From: a virus
Strand: one strand, 5' to 3'
Length of the DNA: 39,238 nucleotides
Virus record (IMG/VR): IMGVR_UViG_3300025133_000275
Location: 1-39,238 of that record
Under the pieces are notes generated by a model. The model was not told the DNA's origin. It saw nothing but the letters and a program-made list of their open reading frames with translations, and searched no databases. This document shows positions 1 to 38,403 of the stretch, piece after piece. The position numbers were made by a program, and so were the translations under genes. Each line of letters begins with the position of its first letter. The stretch's first letter is position 1.

Positions 1-120
1 GGTGACGAGTCTGGTGACGAGTCTGGTGACGAGTCTGGTGACGAGTCTGGTGACGAGTCTGGTGACGAGTCTGGTGACGAGTCTGGTGACGAGTCTGGTG
101 ACGAGTCTGGTGACGAGTCT
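1..120 (+). repeat. 12-bp tandem array (GDES)n, left end
   Basis: Ten perfect head-to-tail copies of GGTGACGAGTCT fill positions 1-120 and are followed by the variant GGTGACGGCGGC. In the frame of the downstream VWA region each unit reads Gly-Asp-Glu-Ser, so the array encodes an acidic flexible linker. The same array, in the same phase and reading frame, ends the window at 39111-39238. The suffix 39123-39238 (116 nt) is identical to positions 1-116, so the contig is circular or terminally redundant and was cut inside the array. The number of units in the real molecule may be larger than the 10 seen here. Confidence 0.97.
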
Positions 121-1086
121 GGTGACGGCGGCGCTAAACAGTTACCTGATCTTGATATGGACACAGACGACAATATAGACGGCTTGATAGGTGATAATAC
201 TACAGACGGTGAGATACCGGACTACCCGGAAAATGACCTTGTGTCTATACTGGCACGCCGCACGCCGCCGACACATGTTAACGAGTACTACGATAATGAT
301 TTTAACCGGATAGCCAAATATTACAGCGAAGCGCCGTTTAAACAGGAGGTCGATAAACTCACACGGGGCACGCAAAGACTCGAAAACGGCTTGAGATCAA
401 TAATAAAAGTCGAATCAAAAACCGGCGTCATAACCCGGCGGCCGCGCGGTAGATTAGACACGCGCGGCTTAGCACGCGCCGCCGCCGGTGACAGTAACGT
501 GTTTCAAAAACGATGGTATAAACAAGCACAAAATACGGCGGTATGTGTTTTAACGGACGTGTCATCATCAATGACGGTGAATTATGTTGACCACGTGACC
601 GACCCGGCACCCATGTTTCTAGCCGCTACGTTTCAACGTGTAGCCGCGCGCACATTACAGCGCGCGCGTGTACCGTACTCACTTGTGGATTATCACGACT
701 ATACCGTTATCAAAAAGTCGTTTACTGAAAACATAACAGACGCGGAATTAGATAAGCGCGTTATTCTTGGCGGCGCTATTTGCCGGGGATGTACTAATAC
801 AACGACGGCTATTTGTGACGCCGCCGATATGTTTAGCACGATACCGCTATCGACTAACGTCACACGCCGTATCATGCTTGTAGTGACCGACGGTGATTGC
901 GACTATGGGCCTGATATGGTTCGTGAATCAATGGCATACGCGCGCACACAAGGCGTTGACGCTATCTATGGTATCGGAATAGGTGATACCGTCGACTTAA
1001 CCGGCGCTGGCTATGATGCACACGAACATATCAATGCAACAAGTCTACCAACTACAGGGCTGAATATGCTCACACGCGCCGTGTAA
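1..1086 (+). CDS. CobT-like VWA protein, C-terminal part (gene continues from 38406-39238)
   Basis: This is the C-terminal part of a gene cut by the contig ends. The frame is open from base 1 through the GDES repeats to TAA at 1084-1086, so the ATG at 157 is internal, not the start. After the acidic linker comes a von Willebrand A domain. The MIDAS motif DVSSS lies at about 553-567, followed by CTNTTTA (the MIDAS Thr region) near 790 and VVTDGD near 880-897, as expected for Mg2+ binding. The known architecture is that of CobT and related proteins: an N-terminal helical region, an Asp/Glu-rich middle and a C-terminal VWA, working with a CobS/MoxR AAA+ ATPase. The ATPase gene lies directly upstream at 37054-38403. 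Nothing else here suggests cobalamin synthesis, so a chelatase role is doubtful; remodelling of a protein or metallo-target is more likely. Confidence 0.9.
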   Translation, partial: GDESGDESGDESGDESGDESGDESGDESGDESGDESGDESGDGGAKQLPDLDMDTDDNIDGLIGDNTTDGEIPDYPENDLVSILARRTPPTHVNEYYDNDFNRIAKYYSEAPFKQEVDKLTRGTQRLENGLRSIIKVESKTGVITRRPRGRLDTRGLARAAAGDSNVFQKRWYKQAQNTAVCVLTDVSSSMTVNYVDHVTDPAPMFLAATFQRVAARTLQRARVPYSLVDYHDYTVIKKSFTENITDAELDKRVILGGAICRGCTNTTTAICDAADMFSTIPLSTNVTRRIMLVVTDGDCDYGPDMVRESMAYARTQGVDAIYGIGIGDTVDLTGAGYDAHEHINATSLPTTGLNMLTRAV

Positions 1087-1117
1087 GGCGCGTTAACTAA
1101 TATGGGGTAATAACCCT

Positions 1118-1285
1118 ATGGCTAAGTTTAAATTCACGTTACCGGTGCCACACGGTAGCGTAACGGTATACTGGCACCGGTTCACGTCCGCGCCAGACGA
1201 CGCCGCGCGGTTTTTTATGTACCGCGCCGACGGCTACATGCAAATATATTTGCACTCGTTTTCGAGTAATTTCTACTCGTTTTAG
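1118..1285 (+). CDS. 55-aa protein of unknown function
   Basis: A short open frame runs from ATG 1118 to TAG 1283-1285, 31 bp after the VWA gene and on the same strand. It encodes MAKFKFTLPVPHG... rich in aromatic residues and ending in SSNFYSF. I do not recognise it. Its GCGC/CGCC-rich base use matches the preceding operon. The upstream ribosome site is weak (GGGG about ten bases before ATG, in a small GGGT/ACCC hairpin). Its stop overlaps the stop of the convergent helicase gene by two bases, so coding space is fully used, which supports it being a gene. It could instead be a chance frame in a terminator-like region. Confidence 0.5.
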   Translation: MAKFKFTLPVPHGSVTVYWHRFTSAPDDAARFFMYRADGYMQIYLHSFSSNFYSF

Positions 1286-1290
1286 AGTAA
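1239..1290. repeat. Palindrome and two tandem small hairpins at a convergent gene junction
   Basis: A perfect 16-bp palindrome (TGCAAATATATTTGCA, 1239-1254) abuts two near-identical 16-bp units, ACTCGTTTTCGAGTAA (1254-1269) and ACTCGTTTTAGAGTAA (1275-1290). Each unit can fold on its own (ACTCG/CGAGT with a TTTT loop, and ACTC/GAGT). The second contains both overlapping stop codons of the convergent genes. The units may act as a weak bidirectional transcription end or as protein-binding sites. They lie inside the 3' end of the small plus-strand frame and touch the end of the helicase gene. Confidence 0.6.
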
Positions 1291-2622
1291 CGCGTTTAAA
1301 CGCTTCATCAATATGTTGTGGTGTGAGGCTTTATTTTCCTCTCGAACTACTATATCTAGGTCTATCGTGTCAGTAGCCGCGAGTATGTCGACCTTGCACG
1401 TGGCCTTTTGATTACGCCGCCAAATGCGCGCTATGACTTGACGCGTTAAATCCCGCGACCATATAGGCGATGCTATTATCATGCGGCTGGCACAGGTTAA
1501 GTCTAATCCGTGCGCTGCCGACTTAGGATGTAGGAATAGCACGCCATTAGAGTCTTTTCGGAACCTAGCAAGGCTGTCATTCCCGCGCTTGTATAAGAGT
1601 CCTTCGGGTATCGCGCGCCGTAGTCTTTTGAGTTCTTCGGCGAACTGGTAAACCACTATGAGAGGTCTTTCAGTGCATTGTAAGAGTCTTTCAGTCTTTA
1701 AGTCATGTATGTAGTCTAGTCCTTCGCCTTCCGTGTGGTATGCAAACCCAGCGCAAACCTGTTGAAGTTTCGTTACCAGTATCGCCGCGTTGTCGGCGAT
1801 TATGTTCGAGTTCACACTGTCTCTTTCGAGTTGCAAATAATAATCCATACTCGCCGTGTCTAGTTCTATCAAGTCCGTCCGTAGTTCCAGCGGCGGGAGT
1901 TCATCCGTGTAATCAGGTAGTGTATAGACGAGGTGTGCTATCCGGTCAGTTATCCGATCAGCTCCGTTGGTCTTTATGTCCCAAGAATAACCGTTGTAGT
2001 CCTGAACGAAATACTCGTTCATGTACTTAGTCTTGTTTCGGCCTAGTGCTTTCCCGCCGTCGATTGCGAATACCTGATAGAACAATTGTTCAAACGATTC
2101 TGACACGGGAGTCCCAGACATCCCGACCCGGACGTCAAAGGTGTTTAAACACTTCCTCATCTTCTTGAACCCTGCGCCGCCCGCTTTGAGCTTCGTGATC
2201 TCATCGAACACAACCATATCGAAACCGTGTTGTTTTCCGTAGGTTGTAAAGAACCAATCCATGTTATTGTATGACAGCACAATGATCTCATTCGACAGGT
2301 CAGCCACTAATTCCTTTCTTGACCCCGGCGAGCCATTAGCAATGGCGATGTTTAAACACGCTGTGTGATCCCATGTGAGATATTCACCGGGCCAGACATC
2401 GGCGACCACGTTAGGCGGTGCAAACACAAGTGCGCGCTTAACCACGCCGTCGCGTAATAACTCCTGCATGGCAGTCAGAGCAACGATAGTCTTTCCAGCA
2501 CCCATCTGACCTATCAGCAGAGTCTCGCCGTATTCGTATATGTGAGTGACGGCTTCGTGCTGTTCACTGTTTAAACACTTAGTCAAGCTGCCTCGCGCTC
2601 TCGTAATGAAAAGGTGATCCAC
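1282..2622 (-). CDS. SNF2/DEAD-type superfamily 2 helicase
   Basis: This 446-aa ATPase has SNF2-family helicase motifs in order: Walker A GQMGAGKT (residues 38-45), the DEAH-like box DEIT (140-143), a SGTP-type motif III (GMSGTP) and C-terminal motifs V and VI (HGLDLT, then QVIARIWRRNQ). Such short SNF2 helicases in phages lie next to a VRR-NUC nuclease and family A polymerase and are assigned to replication or recombination. Translation appears to start at GTG 2622, inside the end of the nuclease gene (44-nt overlap), so the two are translationally coupled. The stop TAA (1282-1284) overlaps the stop of the facing small gene. The function is inferred from motifs and context. Confidence 0.9.
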   Translation of the reverse strand: MDHLFITRARGSLTKCLNSEQHEAVTHIYEYGETLLIGQMGAGKTIVALTAMQELLRDGVVKRALVFAPPNVVADVWPGEYLTWDHTACLNIAIANGSPGSRKELVADLSNEIIVLSYNNMDWFFTTYGKQHGFDMVVFDEITKLKAGGAGFKKMRKCLNTFDVRVGMSGTPVSESFEQLFYQVFAIDGGKALGRNKTKYMNEYFVQDYNGYSWDIKTNGADRITDRIAHLVYTLPDYTDELPPLELRTDLIELDTASMDYYLQLERDSVNSNIIADNAAILVTKLQQVCAGFAYHTEGEGLDYIHDLKTERLLQCTERPLIVVYQFAEELKRLRRAIPEGLLYKRGNDSLARFRKDSNGVLFLHPKSAAHGLDLTCASRMIIASPIWSRDLTRQVIARIWRRNQKATCKVDILAATDTIDLDIVVREENKASHHNILMKRLNALL

Positions 2623-2902
2623 CGGTCATCCATTTGCCCAGCATGTCATAGAACTTATCAGAACTGTCGATGACATACACGCACAGCCCGACGGCGTTTA
2701 GGCGTTGGTGGTCTGCGATCTGTACCGGCGATAGTTTACCCCGCCCGGTGGGAGACTTGAATTCGACGTACATCGTCTTGCCGCCGTGGTGAAAAATGCA
2801 ATCGGGGAATCCGTTATGACTTGGCGTTTCGACTTTACGTGCGAAGCACCCCCGGTTCCGTGCGTATTGTAAACATTTCTTTTGCAAGTCTCTTTCGTTC
2901 AT
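2579..2902 (-). CDS. VRR-NUC domain nuclease
   Basis: This 107-aa protein matches the stand-alone VRR-NUC fold, a PD-(D/E)XK nuclease also found in FAN1. It has an N-terminal helix with ERDLQKKC, catalytic Asp34 in GFPD, Glu47 and Lys49 in YVEFKS, and KLSPVQ after them with the family Gln. Phage VRR-NUC proteins are thought to cut branched or Holliday-type DNA. The gene is first in a two-gene minus-strand unit with the SNF2 helicase and overlaps it. ATG 2902 is used; its ribosome site is weak (CGGTG). It faces away from the replication operon that begins at 2971. Confidence 0.92.
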   Translation of the reverse strand: MNERDLQKKCLQYARNRGCFARKVETPSHNGFPDCIFHHGGKTMYVEFKSPTGRGKLSPVQIADHQRLNAVGLCVYVIDSSDKFYDMLGKWMTGGSPFHYESARQLD

Positions 2903-2914
2903 TGTTCACACCGT

Positions 2915-2943
2915 TTGACATGTGCTTACCAGTATCGCATAAT
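2915..2943 (+). promoter_or_regulatory. Sigma70-like promoter for the replication operon
   Basis: A perfect -35 TTGACA (2915-2920), a 17-bp spacer and a CATAAT -10 (2938-2943, five of six) lie 27 bp upstream of ATG 2971, which has an AAGGAG ribosome site. The sequence just after the -10 is ACGCTCA, part of a motif found at other unit borders. It should start the plus-strand early unit C with host RNA polymerase. Confidence 0.75.
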
Positions 2944-2960
2944 ACGCTCACATTTATCAA
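2931..2960 (-). promoter_or_regulatory. Possible sigma70-like promoter for nuclease-helicase unit
   Basis: On the minus strand TTGATA (2955-2960, five of six) and GATACT (2931-2936, four of six) are 18 bp apart, with the VRR-NUC start codon at 2902 downstream. This overlaps the plus-strand promoter, so the two polymerases would compete. The match is moderate. Confidence 0.4.
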
Positions 2961-2970
2961 GGAGTACCGA

Positions 2971-3183
2971 ATGTCCATTCTAACCCACATACAAGTTGGT
3001 GAGTTTAACTGGCGCGTAGAACAAGAGGCGGGTAATACTGTCTGGGCCGCGTGGCTACCTGACGCCGCACACCCCGACACTGGCGCGCCGACGTTCACTG
3101 ATTTCGATCTTGGCGCGCTGGTGGAAAAACTCAATGCCTTTAATAAAGGAGCACAGCATGGCACTAGCCAAACAGAAAAGTAA
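2971..3183 (+). CDS. 70-aa protein of unknown function, first gene of replication operon
   Basis: The frame starts at ATG 2971, preceded by AAGGAG at 2959-2964 and by the promoter at 2915-2943. The open frame extends further upstream but that part would cross the promoter. The product (MSILTHIQVGEFNWRVEQ...) is small and mildly acidic with several Trp residues; no membrane segment or known motif is visible. It overlaps the following small gene by 26 nt. As the first and probably earliest expressed gene of the unit it could be a host-acting or regulatory protein, but that is only position-based inference. Confidence 0.65.
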   Translation: MSILTHIQVGEFNWRVEQEAGNTVWAAWLPDAAHPDTGAPTFTDFDLGALVEKLNAFNKGAQHGTSQTEK

Positions 3184-3364
3184 ACGTAACCCGGATAGAA
3201 AGAAAAGCACTGCTAACGTGAGTCTGCCTTGGGACGTCTACGACCGTTTAGACAAACTGGCAGAGTCCGAGAAAACCAGCCTTGGCAGAATCGTCGAAGG
3301 CTTAATAGATTACTACGAAGAAAGAGAAGGGAAACAGCGTGGAGGTTTTGATGAAGCACTATAA
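3158..3364 (+). CDS. Ribbon-helix-helix (CopG/Arc-type) DNA-binding protein
   Basis: ATG 3158 follows AAAGGAG at 3145-3151 and gives a 68-aa protein. A basic N-terminus (KQKSKRNPDRKK) is followed by a strand (TANVSLP) and two helices (WDVYDRLDKLAESE; SLGRIVEGLIDYYEERE), the arrangement of ribbon-helix-helix dimers in which the strand enters the DNA major groove. It probably regulates the operon or the nearby divergent promoters; the overlapping inverted elements at 2915-2960 are a natural target. It overlaps its upstream neighbour by 26 nt and its downstream neighbour by 14 nt, so the three are probably cotranslated. Confidence 0.75.
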   Translation: MALAKQKSKRNPDRKKSTANVSLPWDVYDRLDKLAESEKTSLGRIVEGLIDYYEEREGKQRGGFDEAL

Positions 3365-3839
3365 ACGAGGCGGCAGTTCAGCCGCCCGGCAAATCGCTTG
3401 CCCAAGCTGGCAGAAAATATCCGAGGGCGTGCCCCAGCAAAGCACAACCAGTTCATACGCCGCCGAGGGTACGGTCTTGCATACCTGCATGGAGAACATC
3501 CTTGAAGACGGTGCCGAGATAAACGATTTTATGGGGCAGACGTTCACTGTCGATGGTATAGAGGTGGTCATTGACGACGATCACATAGAGTTGCTAACGA
3601 TGGCGCTAATGGCGTGGGACGAGTTCTGTCGTCAGAATCATATCGAAGATTACCGCGTAGAACAGACCTTCGAGATTGATGAAGACACTGGCGGTACCTG
3701 TGACGTAATCGCGTGGAGTGACATCAGAGTGTGGGTTCTTGACTGGAAATTTGGGCAAGGCGTGGAAGTAGCCGCCGCAGGATCAAAGCAAGCAATGTTC
3801 TATTTAATGGCAGCGGAGCAAAGTGATGAATATAAGTGA
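3351..3839 (+). CDS. RecB/Cas4-type nuclease (DUF2800-like), N-terminal half
   Basis: GGAGG at 3341-3345 selects ATG 3351 rather than GTG 3339, giving 162 aa. PD-(D/E)XK RecB-type motifs are visible: Glu39-Gly-Thr-x-x-His44, Asp118, Asp131-Trp-Lys133, and Gln147 in SKQAMFYLM. Cys17 (IACPSW) sits where these enzymes carry the first ligand of a 4Fe-4S cluster. The protein stops at TGA 3837-3839 just after the Gln helix, where the family normally continues to three more clustered cysteines. Those are in the next, overlapping gene in the +1 frame. DUF2800-type nucleases commonly precede a single-strand-binding-type protein and polymerase A in phages, exactly as here. It is either a genuine two-subunit split, a programmed frameshift or a sequence error. 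Confidence 0.85.
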   Translation: MKHYKRGGSSAARQIACPSWQKISEGVPQQSTTSSYAAEGTVLHTCMENILEDGAEINDFMGQTFTVDGIEVVIDDDHIELLTMALMAWDEFCRQNHIEDYRVEQTFEIDEDTGGTCDVIAWSDIRVWVLDWKFGQGVEVAAAGSKQAMFYLMAAEQSDEYK

Positions 3840-4485
3840 GTTATTTAAAACCCGAGGGCTGGGTGTGGCTATCATACAGCCGACGCCGAGTAGGGATACT
3901 GAAACACTTAAAGTATGGTGCCCGACACCTGACGACTTCGACGCATTTAAACGTGACTACGCCAAGTCCAAGACTGCTGTCGGCACCAGTGCCGGAGATC
4001 ACTGCAAGTTCTGTCCGGGGGCTTCGGTTTGCCCGATCAAAACAGGTGACGCCCAAGCAGCATCCGTGGCAGACCCGCATGTACTTGACCAGTTGTCTGA
4101 GAATCTAACACTTGCGCTGAGTCTCAAGGAGTGGATCAAATCCGTAGAGAACTTCGCCCATGAGCAGATGGAACAAGGCGCGGCTGTCGAGGGGTTTAAA
4201 CTCGTCCAGAAGCGGGCGACTCGAAAGTGGTCTAATCCCGTGGAAGCGGAGGAAGCCATTAGGCAAACTAAGAAATTCAAAGTGCGGGATTTCACTAAGT
4301 CCACACTGCTAACCCCACCGCAGATAGAAAAGGTGTTCAAACAAAAAGGAGTTGACATGAGCGTACTGGAGGGGTACATTGTCAAACAGTCAACAGGAAC
4401 GACGGTCGCAACGGTCGACGATCCTCGCGACGAAATAGCCGTGAATGTCAACGCGCTCAAAGCAGCACTTGACCGTTCACAATAA
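3826..4485 (+). CDS. RecB/Cas4-type nuclease (DUF2800-like), C-terminal half with cysteine cluster
   Basis: ATG 3826 has GGAG at 3815-3818 (7-nt spacing) inside the preceding gene, so it can be translated in its own right by coupling. The 219-aa product begins MNISELFKTRGLGVAIIQP, the strand expected to follow directly on the upstream half, and holds Cys60-x2-Cys63-x5-Cys69 (CKFCPGASVC), the three C-terminal ligands of the cluster in Cas4/AddB-type nucleases. The remaining part (about 90-219) is helical with many Lys residues and probably binds DNA. It has no catalytic motif of its own and needs the upstream protein. The two frames overlap by 14 nt. Confidence 0.85.
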   Translation: MNISELFKTRGLGVAIIQPTPSRDTETLKVWCPTPDDFDAFKRDYAKSKTAVGTSAGDHCKFCPGASVCPIKTGDAQAASVADPHVLDQLSENLTLALSLKEWIKSVENFAHEQMEQGAAVEGFKLVQKRATRKWSNPVEAEEAIRQTKKFKVRDFTKSTLLTPPQIEKVFKQKGVDMSVLEGYIVKQSTGTTVATVDDPRDEIAVNVNALKAALDRSQ

Positions 4486-4510
4486 TAAACAGGTAACAGG
4501 AGACATAAAT

Positions 4511-5215
4511 ATGTCAAGTAACCTACCAGCAGTAAACGTACCCGATCTAGGCAAAAGTCTAGTAGCAGCAAAACAACGCAGAGTTCCAGACTCCGGGGAT
4601 ATGCCTTTTCTACGCTTAATCAAAAGCGGTGAGTGGGTGTATGGTTCTGATGACGTCGACGTACAGGAGGGTTCCAAGTGGGCCGCTAATCCTACGACGT
4701 TGATGGAGGGATTCTGTGCGTGGGGGGACGGTGAACTTTTGGGCGAAGAAATGCAGCCCATGACAAACCCGACGCCTCTGATCTCGGCTAACCTACCCGA
4801 CGTGGGCGCGCCGTATAAACGTCAAATCGCGATACAGTTTGTCTGTATCAACGGTGACGACGAGGGTCAGGCTGTGATGTACAAAACATCCAGCAAAGGC
4901 GGCTTAAAAGCTGCGTCCGGGTTGATAGACGCGATCATCACTCAAATCGAAACTACCGCTGACGACGACGGCGAACCGCCTATCGTCCCGGTGATTAAGT
5001 TTGAGGTATCTCACTACAAACATAAAGAGTACGGTCGTGTCTACACGCCTATTCTGGACATTGTAGAGTGGGCCACGATGGGCGGGTCACTCGCGGCGAA
5101 AGACTCCGACGTTACCGGCGGACAAGCCGATGACTACGGTGACGACGACGCTGACGAGCCAGCAGAGGAAGAAGCGCCAAAGCAACGCAAGCGCAGACGT
5201 CCTATCGCTAGTTAA
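4511..5215 (+). CDS. Probable ssDNA-binding-type replication protein
   Basis: AGGAG at 4498-4502 points to ATG 4511 (234 aa). The body is a mixed, beta-rich domain (PFLRLIKSGEWVYG, IAIQFVCINGDDEG, PVIKFEVSHYKHKEYGRVYTPIL). It is followed by an acidic tail (DDYGDDDADEPAEEEAP) and a basic end (RKRRRPIAS). An acidic C-terminal tail is usual for phage single-strand-binding proteins. In comparable phage modules the slot between the DUF2800 nuclease and polymerase A holds a DUF2815-type protein considered SSB-like. I do not see a firm family signature, so the role rests on position and tail. A terminator follows immediately. Confidence 0.7.
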   Translation: MSSNLPAVNVPDLGKSLVAAKQRRVPDSGDMPFLRLIKSGEWVYGSDDVDVQEGSKWAANPTTLMEGFCAWGDGELLGEEMQPMTNPTPLISANLPDVGAPYKRQIAIQFVCINGDDEGQAVMYKTSSKGGLKAASGLIDAIITQIETTADDDGEPPIVPVIKFEVSHYKHKEYGRVYTPILDIVEWATMGGSLAAKDSDVTGGQADDYGDDDADEPAEEEAPKQRKRRRPIAS

Positions 5216-5221
5216 ACCCAC

Positions 5222-5244
5222 GGGGCCGCAAGGCCCCTTTTTTT
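5222..5244 (+). terminator. Rho-independent terminator
   Basis: GGGGCC (5222-5227), a GCAA loop and GGCCCC (5232-5237) are followed by seven T (5238-5244), a classical intrinsic terminator. It lies between the SSB-type gene and polymerase A in the same direction, so it would lower polymerase expression relative to the genes upstream. Confidence 0.85.
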
Positions 5245-5261
5245 CCTTTGAAGGTTTAAAC

Positions 5262-7307
5262 ATGAGATTTCTAATCATAGATTTCGAGACTCGATCCCGT
5301 GTCGATCTCAAAACCGCAGGGACAGACAAATACTGTAAAGACCCAAGCACTGAGATACTGTGCATGGTAGCCAAAATGTCCGATGACATACGGACGTGGG
5401 TGTGGGACGCAACCGGACAGTTGAGTAGTTCACCGCTCTACGACGACGTGTTAGATGATTTCATCAGAGTCGCAGCAAAGCATGTTGCGGACGGCGGCTT
5501 GATAGCCGCGCACAACGCAAGATTCGATCAACAGATATGGGAGTACGTCGCCGTCGGCGATCACGGGTTCCCTGAGATACCCGCTGAATCGTGGTACTGT
5601 ACATCTGCACAGGCGCGTATAAACGCCCTACCCGCTAACCTCGACGATGCCACCCGCGCGCTGGACGCCAGACACAGAAAGAACCACGCCGGGGCCGCGC
5701 TAATACGGCAGTTGTGTATCCCAAACGACATGGGTCAATTTAACAACGACGTTTCACTGCTAACTAAGTTACTGGTGTACTGCATCGACGACGTGGCAGC
5801 GACCAAAGACTTACTGAACAGCACCCGACTGATGTCACCGACGGAACACGACGATTGGTTGGCTAACGAAAGAATCAACGACCGGGGTATAAAAATCGAC
5901 CGGGTTCTCGCAGAGCACGCCACCCAATACGCGGCAGCAGAAGCAGCAGAGATAGGCCGCGAGTTGTCTATACTCACGAATAACAACGTGTCTAAACACA
6001 CGCAGAACCAGCGGATTAAAAAATGGTTGCTGGGCAGGCAGGTTCCCGACATGGTTGAGCAGTTGATGACTGTCTACGTGAAAGGAGTGAAAAAACACTC
6101 GCTGGCAAAAGACATAAGAACGCAGATACTCGACCGCGCGGACTCAGGTGAAATTGACCTGCCTGATGACGTGTACAATGTGATTGCTGCCTTGGATGAC
6201 GGTAACAAGTCCTCAGTAGCAAAGTATCAACGTATGCTCGACCGCAAGGAGCCTGACGACCGTGTAAGGGGTTCGTTCATGTACGCCGGGGCAGCGACTA
6301 TCCGATATACCTCGCGTGGTCTGCAACTACATAACTTCAAACGTGACTGCCTGTCCGCCGCCGACGCGGAGAGTCTGCGGGGTATGATGAGCAGTGGCGC
6401 GCAACTGTCTGGACACGCAGTGATGGACACCCTTGCCAAAGCCCTGCGCCCGACGTTAATACCTGACGAGGGCAAGGCGTTTATCGTGGGCGATTGGAGT
6501 TCTATCGAGAACCGGGCACTACCTTGGCTGGCGAATTCTTACGGGGGTCAGATGAAACTAGACCTGTTTAAACACATCGACGCCGATCCTGATCTGCCTG
6601 ACATGTACGTGCGTGCTGCTGAAGATGCCGGGGGGTATGACAGACAGGTGGGTAAAGTAATTGAATTGTCTCTCGGCTTCGGCGGGGCCAACGGCGCGTT
6701 CAACTCAATGGCGCGTAACTACGGTGTACACCTGCCTGACCACCAAGTGACGCGCATAGTCAAAAACTGGCGTAGGGCTAATCAATGGGCAGAGACTTTT
6801 TGGAACGAACTGGAGAGGGCAGCACGGCAAGCGATCCAAAGCCCCGGTCTGGTCACAGATGCGGGACGGGTGAAATACGTGTTTAACCCTGACCTGATAG
6901 GCGGATCACTGATCTGTGAGCTACCGTGTGGGCAGCTACTGACCTACCCGGCGACACGTTTAAACACTGTTGATACTGAGTGGGGGCCTAAGTCTGAGAT
7001 CAGTGCCTTGAAAGCAAATTGGTCGCCAGCCGCTGATGCAAAAGAATGGCCGAGGTACACTTTATGGCGGGGACTACTCGCAGAAAACGTGACACAAGCG
7101 ACATGTGCGAGTTTATTGCGCTATGTCATTCGCCAGTTCGATGACGTAGTGCTACACTGTCACGACGAAATTGCGCTCGAAGTTCCTATCGGGGATGCTT
7201 ATCTCTGGCGTGACACCCTGCAACACGAAATGGAGAATGGGCCAGCATGGGCACAAGGATTACCTCTCAACGCGCCAGCCAAGATAATGACCAGATACGG
7301 CAAATAA
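5262..7307 (+). CDS. polA: DNA polymerase family A with 3'-5' exonuclease domain
   Basis: The start is ATG 5262 with GAAGG and GTTTAAAC just before it; the open frame extends upstream through the terminator but has no better start. The 681-aa enzyme has exonuclease motifs Exo I (IDFET, Asp7 and Glu9), Exo II (NARFD) and Exo III (YCIDD). These precede polymerase motif A (GDWSSIENR, Asp411), motif B (RQVGKVIELSLGFGG) and motif C (HDE, 634-636). It is the size of replicative phage family A polymerases and should copy the phage genome with the primase-helicase just downstream. All catalytic residues that I can check are present. It is separated from the SSB-type gene by a terminator and so is probably expressed at a reduced level. 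Confidence 0.96.
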   Translation: MRFLIIDFETRSRVDLKTAGTDKYCKDPSTEILCMVAKMSDDIRTWVWDATGQLSSSPLYDDVLDDFIRVAAKHVADGGLIAAHNARFDQQIWEYVAVGDHGFPEIPAESWYCTSAQARINALPANLDDATRALDARHRKNHAGAALIRQLCIPNDMGQFNNDVSLLTKLLVYCIDDVAATKDLLNSTRLMSPTEHDDWLANERINDRGIKIDRVLAEHATQYAAAEAAEIGRELSILTNNNVSKHTQNQRIKKWLLGRQVPDMVEQLMTVYVKGVKKHSLAKDIRTQILDRADSGEIDLPDDVYNVIAALDDGNKSSVAKYQRMLDRKEPDDRVRGSFMYAGAATIRYTSRGLQLHNFKRDCLSAADAESLRGMMSSGAQLSGHAVMDTLAKALRPTLIPDEGKAFIVGDWSSIENRALPWLANSYGGQMKLDLFKHIDADPDLPDMYVRAAEDAGGYDRQVGKVIELSLGFGGANGAFNSMARNYGVHLPDHQVTRIVKNWRRANQWAETFWNELERAARQAIQSPGLVTDAGRVKYVFNPDLIGGSLICELPCGQLLTYPATRLNTVDTEWGPKSEISALKANWSPAADAKEWPRYTLWRGLLAENVTQATCASLLRYVIRQFDDVVLHCHDEIALEVPIGDAYLWRDTLQHEMENGPAWAQGLPLNAPAKIMTRYGK

Positions 7308-7309
7308 AA

Positions 7310-7333
7310 AACCCCGGCGCGAACCGGGGCTTT
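7310..7333 (+). terminator. Possible terminator after polymerase gene
   Basis: CCCCGG (7312-7317), loop CGCGAA and CCGGGG (7324-7329) are followed by CTTT and preceded by A residues. The T-run is short, so this is an attenuator or weak intrinsic terminator. It lies in the 54-bp gap before the primase-helicase. Confidence 0.5.
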
Positions 7334-7361
7334 AAACACACCATCAAAGCGGAGAACCACA

Positions 7362-9875
7362 ATGGATGACGACCATAATACACCTGACGATGACGTGAGT
7401 CTACCTGATACGACCTGCGACGACGTGAGTCAATCTGACACACCACCACCACCGACTGTACCCGTACCCCCAGCGCCCACGATGCACATCGTTGGCACTG
7501 CGACACATAACTATGACCACCAAGCGATAGATGACTTTATCGACTTGGTGTTTCACACGCCGCCCACCCCGGATGCGCATAGGCTCGTTTATACGGCGCG
7601 CACCAACATTCCCCGGATGCCGGTGACAGTGGCGGACATGCACAAAAGTCTGCGCCACAACAAAGCCCGGTCGATGTATTTCAACACCAGTACGTGCGTA
7701 CCTGACCAGCAGGGCACGCTAAGACACAAAAAATCACTGTTCAGTGCCTTCCATGTGCTTGTGCTGGACGACATAGGCACCAAGATACCAACCGAGAACG
7801 TACCGACGGACATGAAGCCCACGTATATCATCGAGACAAGTCAGGGTAACTTCCAGTACGGCTACGTCCTCGACGAGCCATTGACTGATTTAAACGCCGC
7901 TACAGCCCTGTGTCAGACCGCTGCGTTGTCCGGGTTGACCGACGGTGGCGGCGTAATGGCAACCAAAATAGTTCGTCTGCCTGAAGGGGTGAATGGCAAA
8001 GCGGGGCCTAAGCAGGATTTCCAAGTAACCCTGATAGACGATGAAGGCCCCTTCTGGACGCCTGAGTTGCTTGTGGAGCGTATGCGCTGCACTGTCGACG
8101 GCGAGGCAATCACTTGGGAAGGCATACTCCAAGGGGACACGCCTCTAGCCAAAAAATACCACAACCGTAACCCTATACATTCACAGTCAGCCGAGGGTGT
8201 AATAGACCCGGTACTGGAGTGGTTCTATGAGAATGACCTCGTAATGGGCGACGGTGGGGGTGATTGGATTGATATTGAGTGCCCTTGGCACTTGAAACAC
8301 AGCTCAGGTAACAATACCGCCGGTTATGCGCCTGTCGGGCGCGGAGATATGTCACATATCAGAGGTTTTAAGTGTTTTCACGACCACTGCAAGGACAGAA
8401 CGATAATCGACCTGATTCAGTGGGTACTGGCGTCGTCGGATTTCAACCACCTAGCAGTCGAGGAAGCGCGTTTAAACGCCACAGAGTTCGCCTTTGACCC
8501 GGCGCAGGACATGGTGTGGAACATACCTGAAGGTCGCGCATGGAAAATCTCTGGTTTTCGCACTATGCACAACACGCCGTTGTGGGCTTACGAGCCTCGC
8601 CGGGACAAACCCCGTAAAATCACTGCTGCTGAGTCGTGGTTACTATCCCACTACCGCACAGTCGTCGCAGGAGCTTACCACAGCCCCGGTTCGCCGCCTT
8701 TGTTTGAGAAGGGGGGTAGCCTATGGGTGAACCCGTATCGCGGCCCTGCGTGGTCAGACGGGCAGTATGACATGAAACACGTTCAACCTTTCCTTGATTT
8801 CCTTGAATATCTGCTGCCTGACGCCGACGAGAGGGCATATTTCATACAATGGCTGTCCGCCAAGGCTCAGAACCCGCGTTTTAGGGGTACAGGTATCATC
8901 ATGCAGACACAAGCCTTCGGCACCGGTCGGGGCACGCTGGCAGCGATGGTTAACCAGATATGGCAGGATAAGACCGCCGGGGTGGAGTTCGACACACTCA
9001 TACGGTCAGAGGGCTTTAACGGCTGGGAGGCGTTCCCTCTGGTCATTGTAGGAGAGGCCCGTGAGTCTACCTCTAAGATTGAGTCAAAAGGCGCTCACAA
9101 GGCTTACGAGACGCTTAAACAGCGTATGGACACGTCAGTCGTGCGCGGTAAGATCAATGAAAAGTTCCAGCCCGAGAAGCAGATAGACATTTGCTCGTCA
9201 TACCTGCTGTTCACTAACCATATAAACGCCGTGGCAGTCCCACAGGAAGACAGGCGCATCACTGTGCTGAGTAACCCCATGACGGCTGAATCACCGCAGT
9301 ATTTCGTGGATGTGTACAGGTGGCTTGACGCGGGTAAGTTCCCCAATAACCTCGCCGAGCACGATCAGTGGGCGTGGCACGTATGGCACTGGCTTCTCGA
9401 ACAGGACACGGACACCGCTAAACTGGCGTTGCCGCTACGCACGTCAGCTAAACAACTGATGACAGACTCAGCACAGACACCTATGGAGCGTGCCTGCTCT
9501 TGTATGGCGCTGTACATGGTCGATAACGACATAAGCGCCATATCGCCGGGGACGTACAAGACGATAGTTACACAAGCGTTACAGAAGTTTGACCCTAACC
9601 TGAACATATCGACGAGTTACATGCTCCAGACGATGAATGACAGCACGACCGCGCTGGCTATCAAGCTGCATAACTCGACAAGTGGCAAGTCAGAACGTGT
9701 CCGGGTCAATAATCAGGTGCTTCGCGAGTGTAAACTTGTTATCCCCGATAACGCCAAACTTCGCACGGTGCCCGCCTCAAAGTTTAAACGCGCTACCAAG
9801 AACAGGTTTGCAACCGATATGGCGCGTTTAAACATGAACACGGTGATTGACTTCATAGTAGACCAAATGCAATAA
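7362..9875 (+). CDS. Primase-helicase (AEP-type primase, zinc finger, DUF5906/SF3-type helicase)
   Basis: ATG 7362 follows GGAG at 7351-7354 and gives 837 aa. The first 40 residues are Pro/Asp/Thr-rich and probably disordered. Residues 130-212 hold primase-like elements: LVLDDIGTK (acidic motif I), ETSQGNFQYGY and RLPEGVNGK, the layout of RepB/AEP-type primases. CPWH at 307-310 and CFHDHC at 338-343 form a zinc-binding site. The helicase part has a P-loop AFGTGRGT (518-525) and an acidic strand LVIVGEARES. The usual P-loop Lys is Arg, a form I recall from phage DUF5906 proteins. It should unwind and prime the replication fork for the polymerase upstream. Family A polymerase plus such a fused protein suggests self-sufficient replication. 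Confidence 0.88.
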   Translation: MDDDHNTPDDDVSLPDTTCDDVSQSDTPPPPTVPVPPAPTMHIVGTATHNYDHQAIDDFIDLVFHTPPTPDAHRLVYTARTNIPRMPVTVADMHKSLRHNKARSMYFNTSTCVPDQQGTLRHKKSLFSAFHVLVLDDIGTKIPTENVPTDMKPTYIIETSQGNFQYGYVLDEPLTDLNAATALCQTAALSGLTDGGGVMATKIVRLPEGVNGKAGPKQDFQVTLIDDEGPFWTPELLVERMRCTVDGEAITWEGILQGDTPLAKKYHNRNPIHSQSAEGVIDPVLEWFYENDLVMGDGGGDWIDIECPWHLKHSSGNNTAGYAPVGRGDMSHIRGFKCFHDHCKDRTIIDLIQWVLASSDFNHLAVEEARLNATEFAFDPAQDMVWNIPEGRAWKISGFRTMHNTPLWAYEPRRDKPRKITAAESWLLSHYRTVVAGAYHSPGSPPLFEKGGSLWVNPYRGPAWSDGQYDMKHVQPFLDFLEYLLPDADERAYFIQWLSAKAQNPRFRGTGIIMQTQAFGTGRGTLAAMVNQIWQDKTAGVEFDTLIRSEGFNGWEAFPLVIVGEARESTSKIESKGAHKAYETLKQRMDTSVVRGKINEKFQPEKQIDICSSYLLFTNHINAVAVPQEDRRITVLSNPMTAESPQYFVDVYRWLDAGKFPNNLAEHDQWAWHVWHWLLEQDTDTAKLALPLRTSAKQLMTDSAQTPMERACSCMALYMVDNDISAISPGTYKTIVTQALQKFDPNLNISTSYMLQTMNDSTTALAIKLHNSTSGKSERVRVNNQVLRECKLVIPDNAKLRTVPASKFKRATKNRFATDMARLNMNTVIDFIVDQMQ

Positions 9876-9876
9876 T
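9847..9876 (+). promoter_or_regulatory. Possible sigma70-like promoter inside the end of the primase gene
   Basis: TTGACT (9847-9852), an 18-bp spacer and AATAAT (9871-9876) resemble a sigma70 promoter, followed by CATACGCTCATTCTACAA, a copy of the TACGCTCA motif found after the 2915-2943 promoter. It would serve the small basic protein at 9895-10062. Confidence 0.45.
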
Positions 9877-9894
9877 CATACGCTCATTCTACAA

Positions 9895-10062
9895 GTGCGA
9901 AAAATTCCCGTGAGCAATGTAAAAGCAGTGCAGAAATATTCACAGAAGCAGAAGCGGAAGGGGTTTATCAGGATGACCATCTGGGTGCCTGACTCTGACC
10001 GTAAACTAGCCCTCGACTTCTCCCGTGAGCGTCGTCGAAAGTATGCCCAGACTAAGCGTTAA
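9895..10062 (+). CDS. Small basic protein, possible ribbon-helix-helix fold
   Basis: The frame from GTG 9895 to TAA 10060-10062 gives 55 aa, very basic (many Lys and Arg). It contains KGFIRMTIWVPDSDRKLALD, a strand-then-helix pattern seen in small ribbon-helix-helix regulators. No Shine-Dalgarno site is visible; GTG 9910 and GTG 9931 are alternative starts. It is the last gene of unit C. Its stop overlaps the stop of the convergent late operon (TTAA at 10059-10062). It may be a DNA-binding switch protein controlling the neighbouring late unit, but that is inference. Confidence 0.6.
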   Translation: MRKIPVSNVKAVQKYSQKQKRKGFIRMTIWVPDSDRKLALDFSRERRRKYAQTKR

Positions 10063-11975
10063 AACTGGGGTTCCGGCCACGTATCTAGTATTTTCCACTC
10101 TAAAGCCGATTTCTCCACGGAGCTAAGGTCGCTGCTGCGGTAGCCGTCTACAAGCGCGTTGTAAATCATCGCCTGATGCTCTATAGGTAGCGCCAACCAC
10201 GTCTCCTTACGGTCGGGCTGCATCTGGAACTGCCACCATTCATGGATGTCATACACACCATCGCTATTGATGTCGCGTGTCGTGTCGAAGTTCTTGAATG
10301 TGGTTCCCGTGACCGGGTTGGTGAACTCGTCTGTGGTCGTGCCTCCGTCACCCGTGGTCGGGGTCGTGGTCGTGCCTCCGCCATCCGTGGTCGTCCGTGG
10401 GTCGCCTACCCAATCATCGGCCTGCCAGTGCTGACGGTTGGACTCGTTCTGCCCATAGTCTATCCAGTGATCGTAGGCGGTGTATCCTGTCTCCGCCCAG
10501 TTATCCCGCCGCGCTAAGTCCGCTACGTCAGGGTTGTTTTCTAGATAGGCGCCCGCGTCGAAGGTGTGTCTGGCTCTGTCATAGTTGGGGTTGGGTATTT
10601 CTATAGGCCCGGCGGGGCCTTCTGTATAGATGAACTCCTGATCGGGTGTGCCTCCATTCGCGGCTACCCATGCCGCGTAGCCCGCCATCTGCTCTGCGGT
10701 CATACCTGTATGTGGATCAACGGCGTTCGGGTCAGCGGCGGGGTCAGCGGCGGGGTCAGCGGCGGGCGCTTCCACAGAGTCAGGCCACGCACTGTTAATC
10801 GCATCAGCTAAGAGTACCTTAGTTGGGTGGTTGATATTATTGTTATCCAACCCTTTGATTAGCGCGTCTTTAATCATCGCCTGATGCTCTATAGGTAGCG
10901 CCAACCACTCAGTAGACGCACCGTCGCGTAACTGGTAGTCAGCCCACTCCTGTGCGTCCACACGGTTGTTCTGGTTGGCATCCCAGTTCACATCCCACGC
11001 AATAAGCTGGTCGATGTTGTCATAGTCTTTCCCAGTGATGGGATTGGTGTACTGTATTGGGTTTATCTCATCCAGTGGTATGTAGGGTGTCGGCTCTCTG
11101 TCATCTCCGTAATTGCCCATAGCATGCTGTGTCATTGGCTTGAAGTAACCATTCTGTCCGTCCACTCCGTCGCCGGGTATCTGGTAGGCGTCGGCGCGTT
11201 CAGACAGCGGCGGCATAGGATATTCGAGTATGTCACCACCTGTGTTGGTGTTCTCAGGTGCGAAGTTAGGGAACAGCGACGTGACTGAGTTTTGCAAGCC
11301 GAGACGTGACGTGTCGTTTATACGCTCGTCGTTAGCCCCTTGGTATAGCGCATCGGCAAGCGCGTCCTGCTGCTCTTGCGGTAGATCACCCCAGCCGCTT
11401 GTGTCGCGTTGCAGTTGGTAGTCCGCCCACTCCTGCGCGTCAAGTATGTCATCGTCACGCCACTCAGGGTTCCAGTTATCAAACTCCGTAAGCTGGTCAG
11501 CCTTGTAGGGCTGGTCAGTTACTGGGTTGTAGACAGGGTTCAGGTAGGCGTCTGCCTGACTGAGCAGGGCCTGATCATCTTCAAATCCACCGCCGCCAAC
11601 TGCGTTCTGCACCTCGCTGCGGTTGTTCATGTTGATGTTCTGTTCAAGCCACTCATTCGGGTCGATACGGTTGTTCTGGTTTGACGTGTAGTTACCCGCG
11701 TCCACAAACGCATTGACGTCAGCTTGATTGAAGGCATAGTCAGACCCCGGACGAGTGCCATAGTCTTGCGGAGGCAGCGGTTGCACAGGAAGCGGGGTCT
11801 GTACAGGCGGCGGGGTGTAGTCGTCCACAGGGAGCATTGAACCCGCAAACATGCCTGTCCCCGCAGGGGCATAAGTACCCGGAGGCATTTGCTGTTTCGC
11901 CTCTCGTGCCGGTTGCTGTGCTAGAGGTAGCCCTGTAGCCGGGTCTACCGCGCCTGTGGGTTGGATGACAGTCAT
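10059..11975 (-). CDS. Large virion-associated protein with EF-hand-like calcium repeats
   Basis: This is the last gene of the late operon (638 aa), with a Pro/Gln-rich N-terminus to about residue 75. A module of about 85 residues occurs three times (about 150-236, 310-397 and 552-634). Each copy opens with NPVT/NPIT, carries an EF-hand or dockerin-like loop ending in EW (DANQNNRVDAQEW at 332-344, DINSDGVYDIHEW at 568-580, a degenerate loop near 171-184) and ends in a helical pair with WLALPIEHQAMI. A further loop NQNNRIDPNEW is at 99-109. Residues 475-515 (AYLENNPDVADL ... HWIDYGQNESNR) resemble the NPDV...HY..G..EGR motif of secreted RTX-type proteins. Linkers are (AADP)3 and a Gly/Thr-rich stretch. 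A calcium-stabilised, surface-exposed virion or host-interaction protein is likely. Confidence 0.7.
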   Translation of the reverse strand: MTVIQPTGAVDPATGLPLAQQPAREAKQQMPPGTYAPAGTGMFAGSMLPVDDYTPPPVQTPLPVQPLPPQDYGTRPGSDYAFNQADVNAFVDAGNYTSNQNNRIDPNEWLEQNINMNNRSEVQNAVGGGGFEDDQALLSQADAYLNPVYNPVTDQPYKADQLTEFDNWNPEWRDDDILDAQEWADYQLQRDTSGWGDLPQEQQDALADALYQGANDERINDTSRLGLQNSVTSLFPNFAPENTNTGGDILEYPMPPLSERADAYQIPGDGVDGQNGYFKPMTQHAMGNYGDDREPTPYIPLDEINPIQYTNPITGKDYDNIDQLIAWDVNWDANQNNRVDAQEWADYQLRDGASTEWLALPIEHQAMIKDALIKGLDNNNINHPTKVLLADAINSAWPDSVEAPAADPAADPAADPNAVDPHTGMTAEQMAGYAAWVAANGGTPDQEFIYTEGPAGPIEIPNPNYDRARHTFDAGAYLENNPDVADLARRDNWAETGYTAYDHWIDYGQNESNRQHWQADDWVGDPRTTTDGGGTTTTPTTGDGGTTTDEFTNPVTGTTFKNFDTTRDINSDGVYDIHEWWQFQMQPDRKETWLALPIEHQAMIYNALVDGYRSSDLSSVEKSALEWKILDTWPEPQF

Positions 11976-15373: not shown

Positions 15374-17715
15374 TAGGCATCGTTCCCTGCGTCAGTGGTG
15401 AAAAACAGTTTTATCCCTATAAGCCTCGCGTCCTCCGCCATAGTATCGCTGCCGTTTGATACAGCCCTGAATATCCTGAAATAGCACATATCCTCAGCCG
15501 CTGGCGTACCGGCTATGGTGATAGCGCCAGACTCGCCCGTTACAAGCATGTCATTTGCTGCCGAGATATTGTTGTCAATGACCACAACAGCAGTACCGTA
15601 GGTCGCGCCTATCGTGCCGTCGTTACTAACCGCTACACCTTGTAGACTCCATGCCACACCATCGGTATCAGTAGCCGTAGAAGTCCAGAAGGCTTGGAAG
15701 GCTACTGTGCCCTCATTCCAGCTCTTTGGAAACGCCACTTGGAACTGTGCGTATTCGGCAGAAGTCCCGTCAAAGTCCAGCACGTTCATATCTGGTTGCC
15801 CAGCCCCTGTCGCAGCCTGTGCTATCGCCGCACAGCCGTTAGACACCGTGGGCAGCATAGCCGCTACTGGAACGAATATAGTTGATTTGCCTATGTTGCC
15901 GGATGCCAGCCCTGTACAAGTGCCTGAGCTGCCGCTGGCGTTGCCTGTGACGTTGCCAGTTAGCGGCCCTGCAAAATTTGTAGCGGCTGTAATCACCCCG
16001 CCATCAATGGCGCTCGACCCGACATCGACAGCGCCAAAACCTGACGTAATCGAACCTGAGTCCAGCGCTCCTACAGTGACCAAATTGGCTGCACTCGTGA
16101 TGGATGCTTGTGTTCCGCCTGTGACCGTTGCTGCGGTGCCACTGGCGTTGCCTGTTACGTTACCTGTTAAATCTCCAGCAAAATTTGTATCAGCAGTAAT
16201 TACACCACCGTCAATGGCGCTACTGCCGACGTCAATAGACCCAAATCCCGACGTTATAGAGCCTGAGTCCAGTGCTCCAACCGTGACGGCGTTAGCCAGC
16301 GTGGTAATTGCTGCCTGAGTCGCGCCTGTGACTGTTGCTGCCGTGCCAGAAGTGTTACCTGTGACATTACCTGTAATATTCCCTGCGAAGTTTGTATCCG
16401 CTGTGATCACACCGCCGTCGATAGCACTGGAGCCGACATCAATAGACCCAAAACCTGACGTAATTGACCCTGAGTCCAATGCGCCTACAGTAACAAGATT
16501 TGCCGCACTTGTTATACTGGCCTGCGTCCCGCCCGTTACAGTGGCTGCCGTGCCGCTGGTGTTTCCAGTAACATTACCTGTTAAATTTCCAGCAAAATTT
16601 GTATCCGCTGTAATCACGCCACCGTCGATAGCACTGGAGCCTACGTCAATAGATCCGAAGCCGCTCGTGATCGAACCTGAGTCCAATGCGCCCACTGTGA
16701 CCGCGTTAGCGAGAGTGGTGATTGCTGCCTGTGTAGCCCCTGTTACGGTTGCGGCTGTCCCTGATGCGTTACCTGTCAGGTTGCCTACAAACACTGTGCT
16801 GGTGATAGATGTCGCGCCTGTGACCACACCCGCATCGACGCTGATCGTGCCGTCCAGAACGATAGCTGATCCGGCTACGGGTGTCAGTGCGAGGTTGCCC
16901 ACGGTGGTCACAATAGCGTCACCGTTGGTGATCTCCAGATTCGTGCCGCCTGTGGTGTTGCCCAGCGCCAGCACCTCAGTCAGTGAGTTCACTGTGCCTA
17001 CCTGCGCGTCTACATACGCCTTGATCGACTGCTGCGTGGCAAGCTGTGTGGCACTGTTTGTACCCATCGCGTCTTCATCGAGTATACCTGTGACCGTCGC
17101 GCCTGTGGCAAGTGTCAGGGACGTAGACAAGGTAGTAGCCGGTGTGACCACCACCGAGGTGCTGATGTCGATGACTGTGGTGAGCGTGCCCGCCTGCATG
17201 GTCTTGACGAGCAGCGTGCCGTCTTCTGTGGCGTCTGTCACGTCGTCTATCTGGGCCTCGATAGAGGCGAAGGTGGTCTGTGTACCCCCGTCGTCCTCAC
17301 CGTCGAAGTAGACCGCGCCTATAAAGTCCGCGTCTGCTGGCGAGGCTGAGTTCCTGTGCAGCTTGAGGATAGGGCCAATAGTAGCGTCTGCCACTGCGCT
17401 GATCACCGTGGCGACCTCCGAGGCGTAGTCCATGACCTGCACACCCGCGAGGGCTATGCCGACGTTCCCCGTGGCGATGTAGTATATACCTGTGGATAGC
17501 TCATCGGTGAAGGCGTAGCCGGGTAGACTGACGGTGCCTGCGAACCCTTCCAGACCTGCGAGCATCGCGCCACTACCTGACCGGGAGAGGCTGTCTGTCA
17601 TCTCCGTGGCAAGGTCTGTCAGCGTGTTATTCGCCCATGTCGCTGAGATCGTCGTACCCGAGCTAACCGGGTTCCCCGATGCTAAACTATAATTACCTGA
17701 CGCGTCGCGTGCCAT
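15373..17715 (-). CDS. Tail fibre protein with Gly/Thr-rich repeats
   Basis: AGGAG, then GTTTAAAC, then ATG 17715 gives 780 aa. The N-terminus (MARDASGNYSLASG ... ISATWANNTLTDLATEM) is typical of podophage tail fibres that attach to the tail. From residue 319 four copies of a 69-residue unit follow (GTAATVTG ... AGNLTGNVTGN), forming a probable beta-rich trimeric shaft. The C-terminal 150 residues (after CTGLASGNIG) form a compact domain with a segment like IFVPVAAMLPTVSNGCA. No peptidase S74 motif is present here; one occurs in a different protein (21730-23367). It overlaps the adhesin gene downstream by one base. Confidence 0.88.
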   Translation of the reverse strand: MARDASGNYSLASGNPVSSGTTISATWANNTLTDLATEMTDSLSRSGSGAMLAGLEGFAGTVSLPGYAFTDELSTGIYYIATGNVGIALAGVQVMDYASEVATVISAVADATIGPILKLHRNSASPADADFIGAVYFDGEDDGGTQTTFASIEAQIDDVTDATEDGTLLVKTMQAGTLTTVIDISTSVVVTPATTLSTSLTLATGATVTGILDEDAMGTNSATQLATQQSIKAYVDAQVGTVNSLTEVLALGNTTGGTNLEITNGDAIVTTVGNLALTPVAGSAIVLDGTISVDAGVVTGATSITSTVFVGNLTGNASGTAATVTGATQAAITTLANAVTVGALDSGSITSGFGSIDVGSSAIDGGVITADTNFAGNLTGNVTGNTSGTAATVTGGTQASITSAANLVTVGALDSGSITSGFGSIDVGSSAIDGGVITADTNFAGNITGNVTGNTSGTAATVTGATQAAITTLANAVTVGALDSGSITSGFGSIDVGSSAIDGGVITADTNFAGDLTGNVTGNASGTAATVTGGTQASITSAANLVTVGALDSGSITSGFGAVDVGSSAIDGGVITAATNFAGPLTGNVTGNASGSSGTCTGLASGNIGKSTIFVPVAAMLPTVSNGCAAIAQAATGAGQPDMNVLDFDGTSAEYAQFQVAFPKSWNEGTVAFQAFWTSTATDTDGVAWSLQGVAVSNDGTIGATYGTAVVVIDNNISAANDMLVTGESGAITIAGTPAAEDMCYFRIFRAVSNGSDTMAEDARLIGIKLFFTTDAGNDA
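15934..16761 (-). repeat. Four 207-bp repeats in the tail fibre gene
   Basis: Unit boundaries are 16761-16555, 16554-16348, 16347-16141 and 16140-15934. Each encodes 69 residues. Units alternate A-B-A-B: A units have ATQAAITTLANA and B units have GTQASITSAANL, so a two-unit block was duplicated. The protein is nearly identical between units while many third codon positions differ. Confidence 0.92.
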
Positions 17716-37053: not shown

Positions 37054-38403
37054 ATGACAAATCTAACCATAAATAGCCAGCGCCGCGCCTTGATACAAAA
37101 AGGCCACGCGGTAGCAGGGTTAACCGACGCCGATATTGAACAGGCATATAACGCTATGACACTTGGCGCCGCGCTAGGTAACACACCTAAGCCTATTCAG
37201 CCGCAACCTAGTGATACCAGTAGCGCGCCGCAAAATAGCACCGTTGGCGCTGATCTTGCGAATACATTTATGAACGACGGGAAAAACGCGTTTATAGCTT
37301 CCCTAGGCGTCGTACTAGGCGATTATCAAAAAGAGAATGATAACCTCACCAGTATCATAGACGGCCTACACGCGGACAACAGCGCGCTACAGGATGATGT
37401 CGACAACGCGCGCCGTATATCGACTACGCCGCCGCAAATCATAACGCGCACAGTTGACATTGACGGGAACGAAATAACGCCGGACGTGAACCCGCAAAAA
37501 GTCGATACAGTACAAGCCGCCGACATCTGGCCTGACATCGACGGCGCGTATACTTTCGACAGATACGACTTTGAAGCGCCGCGTGAACCTGCATTTTATG
37601 ACATGAATCAGATGCACAACTCCGGGTTACTGGCACAGGTAGCCAGCGCCGTTAAACGTGATAACCCATTATGGCTATACGGTGAAAAAGGCACAGGCAA
37701 AACGACTTTTGTACAATCGCTGGCCTTCTCATTAGGACGTCCGTTTTTCAGGATATCGCACACTAAATCAATGGAATCGCAGGCATTGATAGGTTGTTTC
37801 CTGCTACCTGACAGTAAAACCCAGTGGAGTGACGGCGCGTTGACTCAGGCCATTAAAACGCCGCGCGCGGTCATACTCTTAGATGAACCTACGCGTAACC
37901 CGGACGCGTGCGAAATCTACCAAACACTACTGGATGAGAAATACTATGACATAGCAGAAACCGGGGAACGCGTGTGGATAGCTGACGGCGTGTCATTTTT
38001 TGCCGCCGATAATCAAAACGGTGACGGTGACGATACAGGCCGCTACGACGGTACGTTTGCGGTTAACAGCGCCTTTGGTGACAGGTTCAAAGCGAAACTA
38101 CAATGCTTCTATATGGCACCGGCACATGAGGCCGCGTTACTTGTATCGTTGACCGGTATCAATAAAAACAGCGCGCTGGAAATAGCGGAATTTGCGAACA
38201 TCATGCGCGGCATGGCTACCGCAGGTGAGATTGAAGAACCTATTTCTTTTAGGCGTTTAAACGCGTTAGCTGAATTCATAGTCGACGGTATACCGCACGA
38301 CTTAGCGATGGAAACAGCCGTGTTTGCTTTTATAAGACACGAACAGGATAGAGAAACATACCGCACGCAAGCCGCCGTACACCTTACACAATTGAGAGCC
38401 TAA
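37054..38403 (+). CDS. cobS: CobS/MoxR-type AAA+ ATPase
   Basis: AGGAAACAGGA before ATG 37054 gives 449 aa. An N-terminal 190 residues (partly low complexity, possible coiled coil near 85-115) precede the AAA+ domain: Walker A GEKGTGKT (210-217), Walker B VILLDEPTR (Asp277-Glu278), sensor 1 FFAADNQNG and DRFKAKL with an arginine-finger candidate. It closely follows the CobS/MoxR pattern, which works with VWA partners such as CobT, encoded two bases downstream (38406). The N-terminal extension replaces the short N-terminus of bacterial CobS. A MoxR-type remodeller is more likely than a cobaltochelatase. Confidence 0.9.
   Translation: MTNLTINSQRRALIQKGHAVAGLTDADIEQAYNAMTLGAALGNTPKPIQPQPSDTSSAPQNSTVGADLANTFMNDGKNAFIASLGVVLGDYQKENDNLTSIIDGLHADNSALQDDVDNARRISTTPPQIITRTVDIDGNEITPDVNPQKVDTVQAADIWPDIDGAYTFDRYDFEAPREPAFYDMNQMHNSGLLAQVASAVKRDNPLWLYGEKGTGKTTFVQSLAFSLGRPFFRISHTKSMESQALIGCFLLPDSKTQWSDGALTQAIKTPRAVILLDEPTRNPDACEIYQTLLDEKYYDIAETGERVWIADGVSFFAADNQNGDGDDTGRYDGTFAVNSAFGDRFKAKLQCFYMAPAHEAALLVSLTGINKNSALEIAEFANIMRGMATAGEIEEPISFRRLNALAEFIVDGIPHDLAMETAVFAFIRHEQDRETYRTQAAVHLTQLRA

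Follow-up and report, generated by a model that had tools for sequence, protein, structure and literature searches.

A phage DUF2800 nuclease gene recorded in two overlapping reading frames and its probable private frame change

Two overlapping plus-strand frames, ORF A and ORF B, lie in the replication region of the analysed virus record of 39,238 bases (the whole of it is called the window below), and judged by their sequences they correspond to the N-terminal and the C-terminal half of a single RecB/Cas4-type nuclease of the DUF2800 family (PF10926). The locus as recorded is thus a broken or split member of this family. On balance, we lean towards a phage DUF2800 nuclease gene of the ordinary kind that carries a private net one-base frame change; the likelihoods given in words here and below are our own judgement and were not computed. 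The break is called private because the relatives examined are unbroken at this position. A nuclease made of two separate chains is the alternative that had to be weighed most carefully.

Reading frames, family and predicted fold

ORF A (162 aa) extends from ATG 3351 to TGA 3837–3839, and ORF B (219 aa) begins at ATG 3826 in the A+1 frame, which gives an overlap of 14 nt (Table 1). A previous interpretation made from the letters alone (the sequence-only reading) had noticed both frames, the GGAG, the ATG, the AAG-TGA-G context and the four cysteines, all of which were found where it had placed them. Its beginning of the feature at 3339 was not retained, as the start of ORF A is ATG 3351, preceded by GGAGG, and not GTG 3339. 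The last stop upstream in the frame of ORF B is TAA 3805–3807 and the first frame is closed by the TGA at 3837–3839; because both frames are open in between, the frame change can be placed only to 3808–3836. The AAG-TGA-G proposed earlier as the shift site is therefore present and represents one option within this stretch. There is no long homopolymer at the site. A direct repeat of 6 nt, AAGTGA, occurs at 3821 and 3834 with a spacing of 13 nt (13 = 1 mod 3); it was considered as the mark of a real insertion and was set aside, since the two 13-nt units are not identical and repeats of this kind are not unusual.

Table 1. Features of the nuclease locus and the surrounding replication genes in the window
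Feature	Position	Strand	Basis or remark
SNF2/DEAD-like helicase, same replication region, upstream	1282–2622	-	unbroken against relatives
Shine-Dalgarno-like GGAGG of ORF A	3342–3346, within a base (3341–3345)	+	sequence reading; anti-SD duplex -10.5 kcal/mol
ORF A, N-terminal part of putative DUF2800 PD-(D/E)XK nuclease	3351–3839	+	PF10926 positions 3–161
Stretch open in both frames	3808–3836	+	holds the A to A+1 change; equals the length-variable loop after the QxxxY helix
GGAG, possible SD of ORF B	3815–3818	+	7 nt before ATG 3826
ORF B, with last core strand LGVAIIQP, C60/C63/C69 and C-terminal domain of DUF2800	3826–4485	+	PF10926 positions 167–367
234-aa gene, next in module, phrog_9528-like	4511–5215	+	between nuclease and polA
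Family A DNA polymerase	5223–7307	+	unbroken against relatives
Primase/helicase-like replication protein	7362–9875	+	unbroken against relatives

Profile searches assigned both frames to the same family. ORF A matched positions 3–161 of the 368 of PF10926 with 59.5 bits (E 4.4e-16) and ORF B positions 167–367 with 85.1 bits (E 7.2e-24), while the read-through protein P0003, a single conceptual translation across the junction that served for searches and fold prediction, matched positions 3–367 with 154.1 bits and also matched PDDEXK_1. All three scores are above the PF10926 gathering score of 21 bits. Because ORF A and ORF B match adjoining parts of PF10926, they are not chance ORFs; both also match the phage exonuclease family phrog_69. 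Thus, the earlier proposal that reading through would yield a natural DUF2800-type sequence was borne out by the full-length match. The family profile gave no match in a sequence search of the PDB.

ORF A carries C17, H44, D118, D131-x-K133 and Q147xxxY151, and ORF B carries C60, C63 and C69, which correspond to residues 218, 221 and 227 of the read-through protein. C17, D118, D131, K133, Q147, Y151, C218, C221 and C227 do not vary in an alignment of 53 sequences, H44 is almost invariant, and every one of 71 aligned sequences has the four cysteines. The four-cysteine pattern of the Fe-S (AddB/Cas4-type) nucleases, with one cysteine on the N-terminal and three on the C-terminal side of the core, is therefore present, divided 1+3 between ORF A and ORF B. 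These matches and conserved motifs agree with the RecB/Cas4-type identity and the cysteine division originally claimed. As in the DUF2800/phrog_69 phage exonucleases, the match covers the whole length and the invariant catalytic and cysteine residues are retained; unlike in those enzymes, the protein is encoded in two frames with the break between profile positions 161 and 167. One continuous frame through the nuclease core, a trait of the surveyed relatives that stands outside the Pfam definition, is absent here.

The AF2 model of the read-through protein has a mean pLDDT of 87, with about 97 at the junction, and predicts a RecB-type fold. The model aligned with AdnA at Z 15.9 (216 residues, rmsd 3.5), with AddB at Z 12.8 (227 residues, rmsd 3.6), with MGME1 at Z 11.2 and with Cas4 SSO0001 at Z 10.4, values that come from VIA-align, which re-examines Foldseek's own matches, so that families unlisted there may still be similar. 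The modelled fold and the 1+3 cysteine arrangement are shared with the AddB, AdnA and Cas4 Fe-S nucleases, but the phage protein is free-standing, without a helicase domain and without cas1/cas2. A CRISPR Cas4 identity was rejected, as NCBIfam cas4 (TIGR00372) gave 16 bits, far under its cut-off of 65, and no cas1/cas2 neighbours were found among the large ORFs searched nearby (157–11975).

In the model, the loop at the break joins the QxxxY helix (146–157) to the next core strand (169–175). Residues 159–161 are among the family positions with frequent indels, and the loop between fixed columns has 18 residues in the read-through protein and 13–19 in the relatives.

Unbroken and split relatives and the genomic setting

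At 60% identity, the closest copies are L004/L083 from IMG/VR and L104, a contig from the MAG of a gammaproteobacterium; they consist of one ORF of 371 aa and are followed by the same genes. L004 differs very little from L104, and the two therefore count as about one lineage. The syntenic locus L209 (35% identity) also has one ORF, and about 70 further loci at greater distance show no break here either. Those relatives in which both gene ends were present run continuously through the core in the frame survey, and no other row of the 71-row alignment is broken at this loop. A tblastn search matched 742 phage records, in 600 of which at least 80% of the query was covered at a single place, and among 60 rows sampled down the ranking only MW202496 had the gene in two pieces. 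Relatives all with one frame had been named beforehand as the result that would count against a genuine two-frame nuclease, and at this position L004/L083, L104, L209 and the roughly 70 loci are all of that kind.

DUF2800 genes divided elsewhere do occur. The only split loci seen were L206 (3037–4075) and L002 (4001–5160), each made up of a nuclease gene and a gene for the C-terminal domain, with the division after the third C-terminal cysteine. These are the two-gene DUF2800s of two Manatee Spring phages, MW202557 and MW202496, with overlapping ORFs cut at profile positions 249/250, one of them with the same 14-nt A+1 overlap as in the window. Their split, however, lies at the boundary of the C-terminal domain, and one chain retains the core with its four cysteines; the 1+3 division was seen in this window only. 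Feature names had suggested the APSE phages as a further split case, which was discarded because P51/DUF2800 is one gene there. The literature search found nothing on split DUF2800 or Cas4 nucleases.

Divergence from L104 was 0.24 and 0.27 at first and second codon positions and 0.50 and 0.61 at third positions for the two halves. Both halves have thus diverged equally, at a pace like that of the neighbouring genes, which is as expected for one gene broken late. Searches for closer sequences were negative: the window had no DNA similarity to phage records, the exact junction DNA did not occur in IMG/VR, and no closer copy of DUF2800 was found in 369 genomes of the class, or of P0003 in 390 genomes of the order, to which the MAG of L104 belongs. 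A search with the polymerase led to L084, which begins within the 234-aa gene and does not include the nuclease.

A duf2800-gp2.5-polA module has been reported in phages (PMC8093625), and the window likewise has a nuclease gene followed by a small gene and then polA; it differs in that the 234-aa middle gene has no detectable link to gp2.5/DUF2815. The 234-aa protein, which occupies the place of gp2.5 of other phages, is conserved in relatives at 38–43% and had no Pfam match. Its identification as gp2.5 was dropped after hhalign with the relatives found at the DUF2815 position gave no match.

Some features of the rest of the window are worth recording. One 12-nt tandem array (GGTGACGAGTCT, 10.6 copies) recurs at both ends, 1–127 and 39112–39238, and contig G005 spans the join; therefore, the map closes inside a simple repeat whose true length may differ from that recorded. 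A CobS/MoxR-like AAA+ ATPase gene (37054–38403, +) and a gene for a VWA/CobT-like protein (157–1086, +) flank the terminal array and resemble, as a pair, cobaltochelatase-like phage genes. Four diverged 207-nt tandem repeats are located within a structural gene region (15930–16752, −), in and around which the same-species contigs differ from the window.

Origin of the frame change

On the broken-gene reading, the recorded frame change would be an error of the consensus or else a private mutation, probably of recent date. Same-species contigs, found via the portal gene, match the window over 9365–39216 without unbalanced indels, and the helicase, polymerase, primase and 234-aa genes are unbroken against their relatives; thus, indel errors appear to be rare in this assembly. 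None of those contigs extends to the break: a protein search for the nuclease gave no match in them, and a DNA search with 1–9000 matched window positions 14–118 only.

The broken-gene reading is supported by the adjoining PF10926 matches, by the 154 bits of the read-through protein compared with 172 bits for the unbroken L104, by the unbroken relatives, by a loop length within the family range, by the high pLDDT of the modelled junction and by the equal divergence of the halves. The apparently indel-clean assembly, the lack of a long homopolymer, the position of the break in a loop tolerant of splitting and the ATG of ORF B with its GGAG stand against it. If a single gene was broken by a net one-base change inside the loop after the QxxxY helix, the intact enzyme would be a RecB/AddB/Cas4-type PD-(D/E)XK exonuclease with a four-cysteine Fe-S site, encoded in the replication module beside polA. 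It would be one chain, in which the N-terminal and the three C-terminal cysteines hold one cluster, and it may process DNA ends in replication or recombination. ORF A by itself, which is without one core strand and three cysteines, would presumably be inactive.

A real two-gene nuclease is possible, and we hold it to be the less probable explanation. In such a system the ribosome would stop at TGA 3837 and restart 14 nt back at ATG 3826 on the GGAG, and the two chains would form one PD-(D/E)XK core sharing one Fe-S cluster (1+3) at their interface. The overlap is of the reinitiation type, the ATG of ORF B with GGAG at 7 nt has about the typical start strength for this phage (anti-SD energy of −5.8 kcal/mol, middling among its genes), the break falls in the length-variable loop between helix 146–157 and strand 169–175, where chain breaks are best tolerated, and both the spring phages with their two-gene DUF2800s and the otherwise clean assembly are consistent with it. 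Nevertheless, no relative is split here, the splits known at 249/250 keep the core and the four cysteines together, and ORF A would be left without a core strand. Chance alone puts an A+1 start as good as that of ORF B into 6.6% of the comparable coding stretches in the window (2.5% with ATG), and in 7 of 70 relatives the equivalent loop happens to hold a start of the same quality, four times with ATG. The whole reinitiation-type arrangement, that is, overlapping stop and start plus SD, is expected by chance in about 3–10% of cases. Since comparable starts arise by chance, ORF B as a gene of its own is favoured only mildly. The more specific proposal, a split Fe-S nuclease whose core is completed in trans and whose one cluster joins two polypeptides made by reinitiation, seems rather unlikely to us. 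The active site and one cysteine would then come from chain A, and the other three cysteines together with the last core strand from chain B. The sequence-only reading had offered such a shared cluster as one option; it is possible, but the relatives lend it no support.

Two further explanations are much weaker. A programmed +1 frameshift at AAG-TGA-G, which would give a fused nuclease and a short product, was also suggested by the sequence-only reading. In its favour are the +1 offset of the frames, a UGA stop like that of the prfB-type shift, and a fused sequence that reads as a natural DUF2800 protein. In the prfB frameshift, an SD-like element lies about 3 nt before the slippery codon, whereas here 15 nt separate the end of the GGAG from the AAG codon, and the GGAG is well placed for initiation at ATG 3826 (7 nt) instead. 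Moreover, re-pairing from AAG to AGU is poor, downstream structure is insignificant (z about −1.4, −1.3 to −1.5), and the signal is in no relative because no relative is broken there, so that we regard a programmed shift as very improbable and the suggestion as poorly supported. Genuine decay, with a real break old enough for fixation in a phage that no longer needs the nuclease, is equally hard to credit: real single-base breaks do occur in phage populations and this one is private to this genome among the sequences seen, but both halves keep all their other motifs and carry no further lesion, so any decay would necessarily be recent, and recent decay shades into the broken-gene reading.

If the frame change is an error or a private mutation, as we think probable, the locus is an ordinary DUF2800 nuclease that annotation would list as two genes. 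If, on the other hand, the two chains are real, two polypeptides would share one nuclease core and one Fe-S cluster, something rarely seen in nature.
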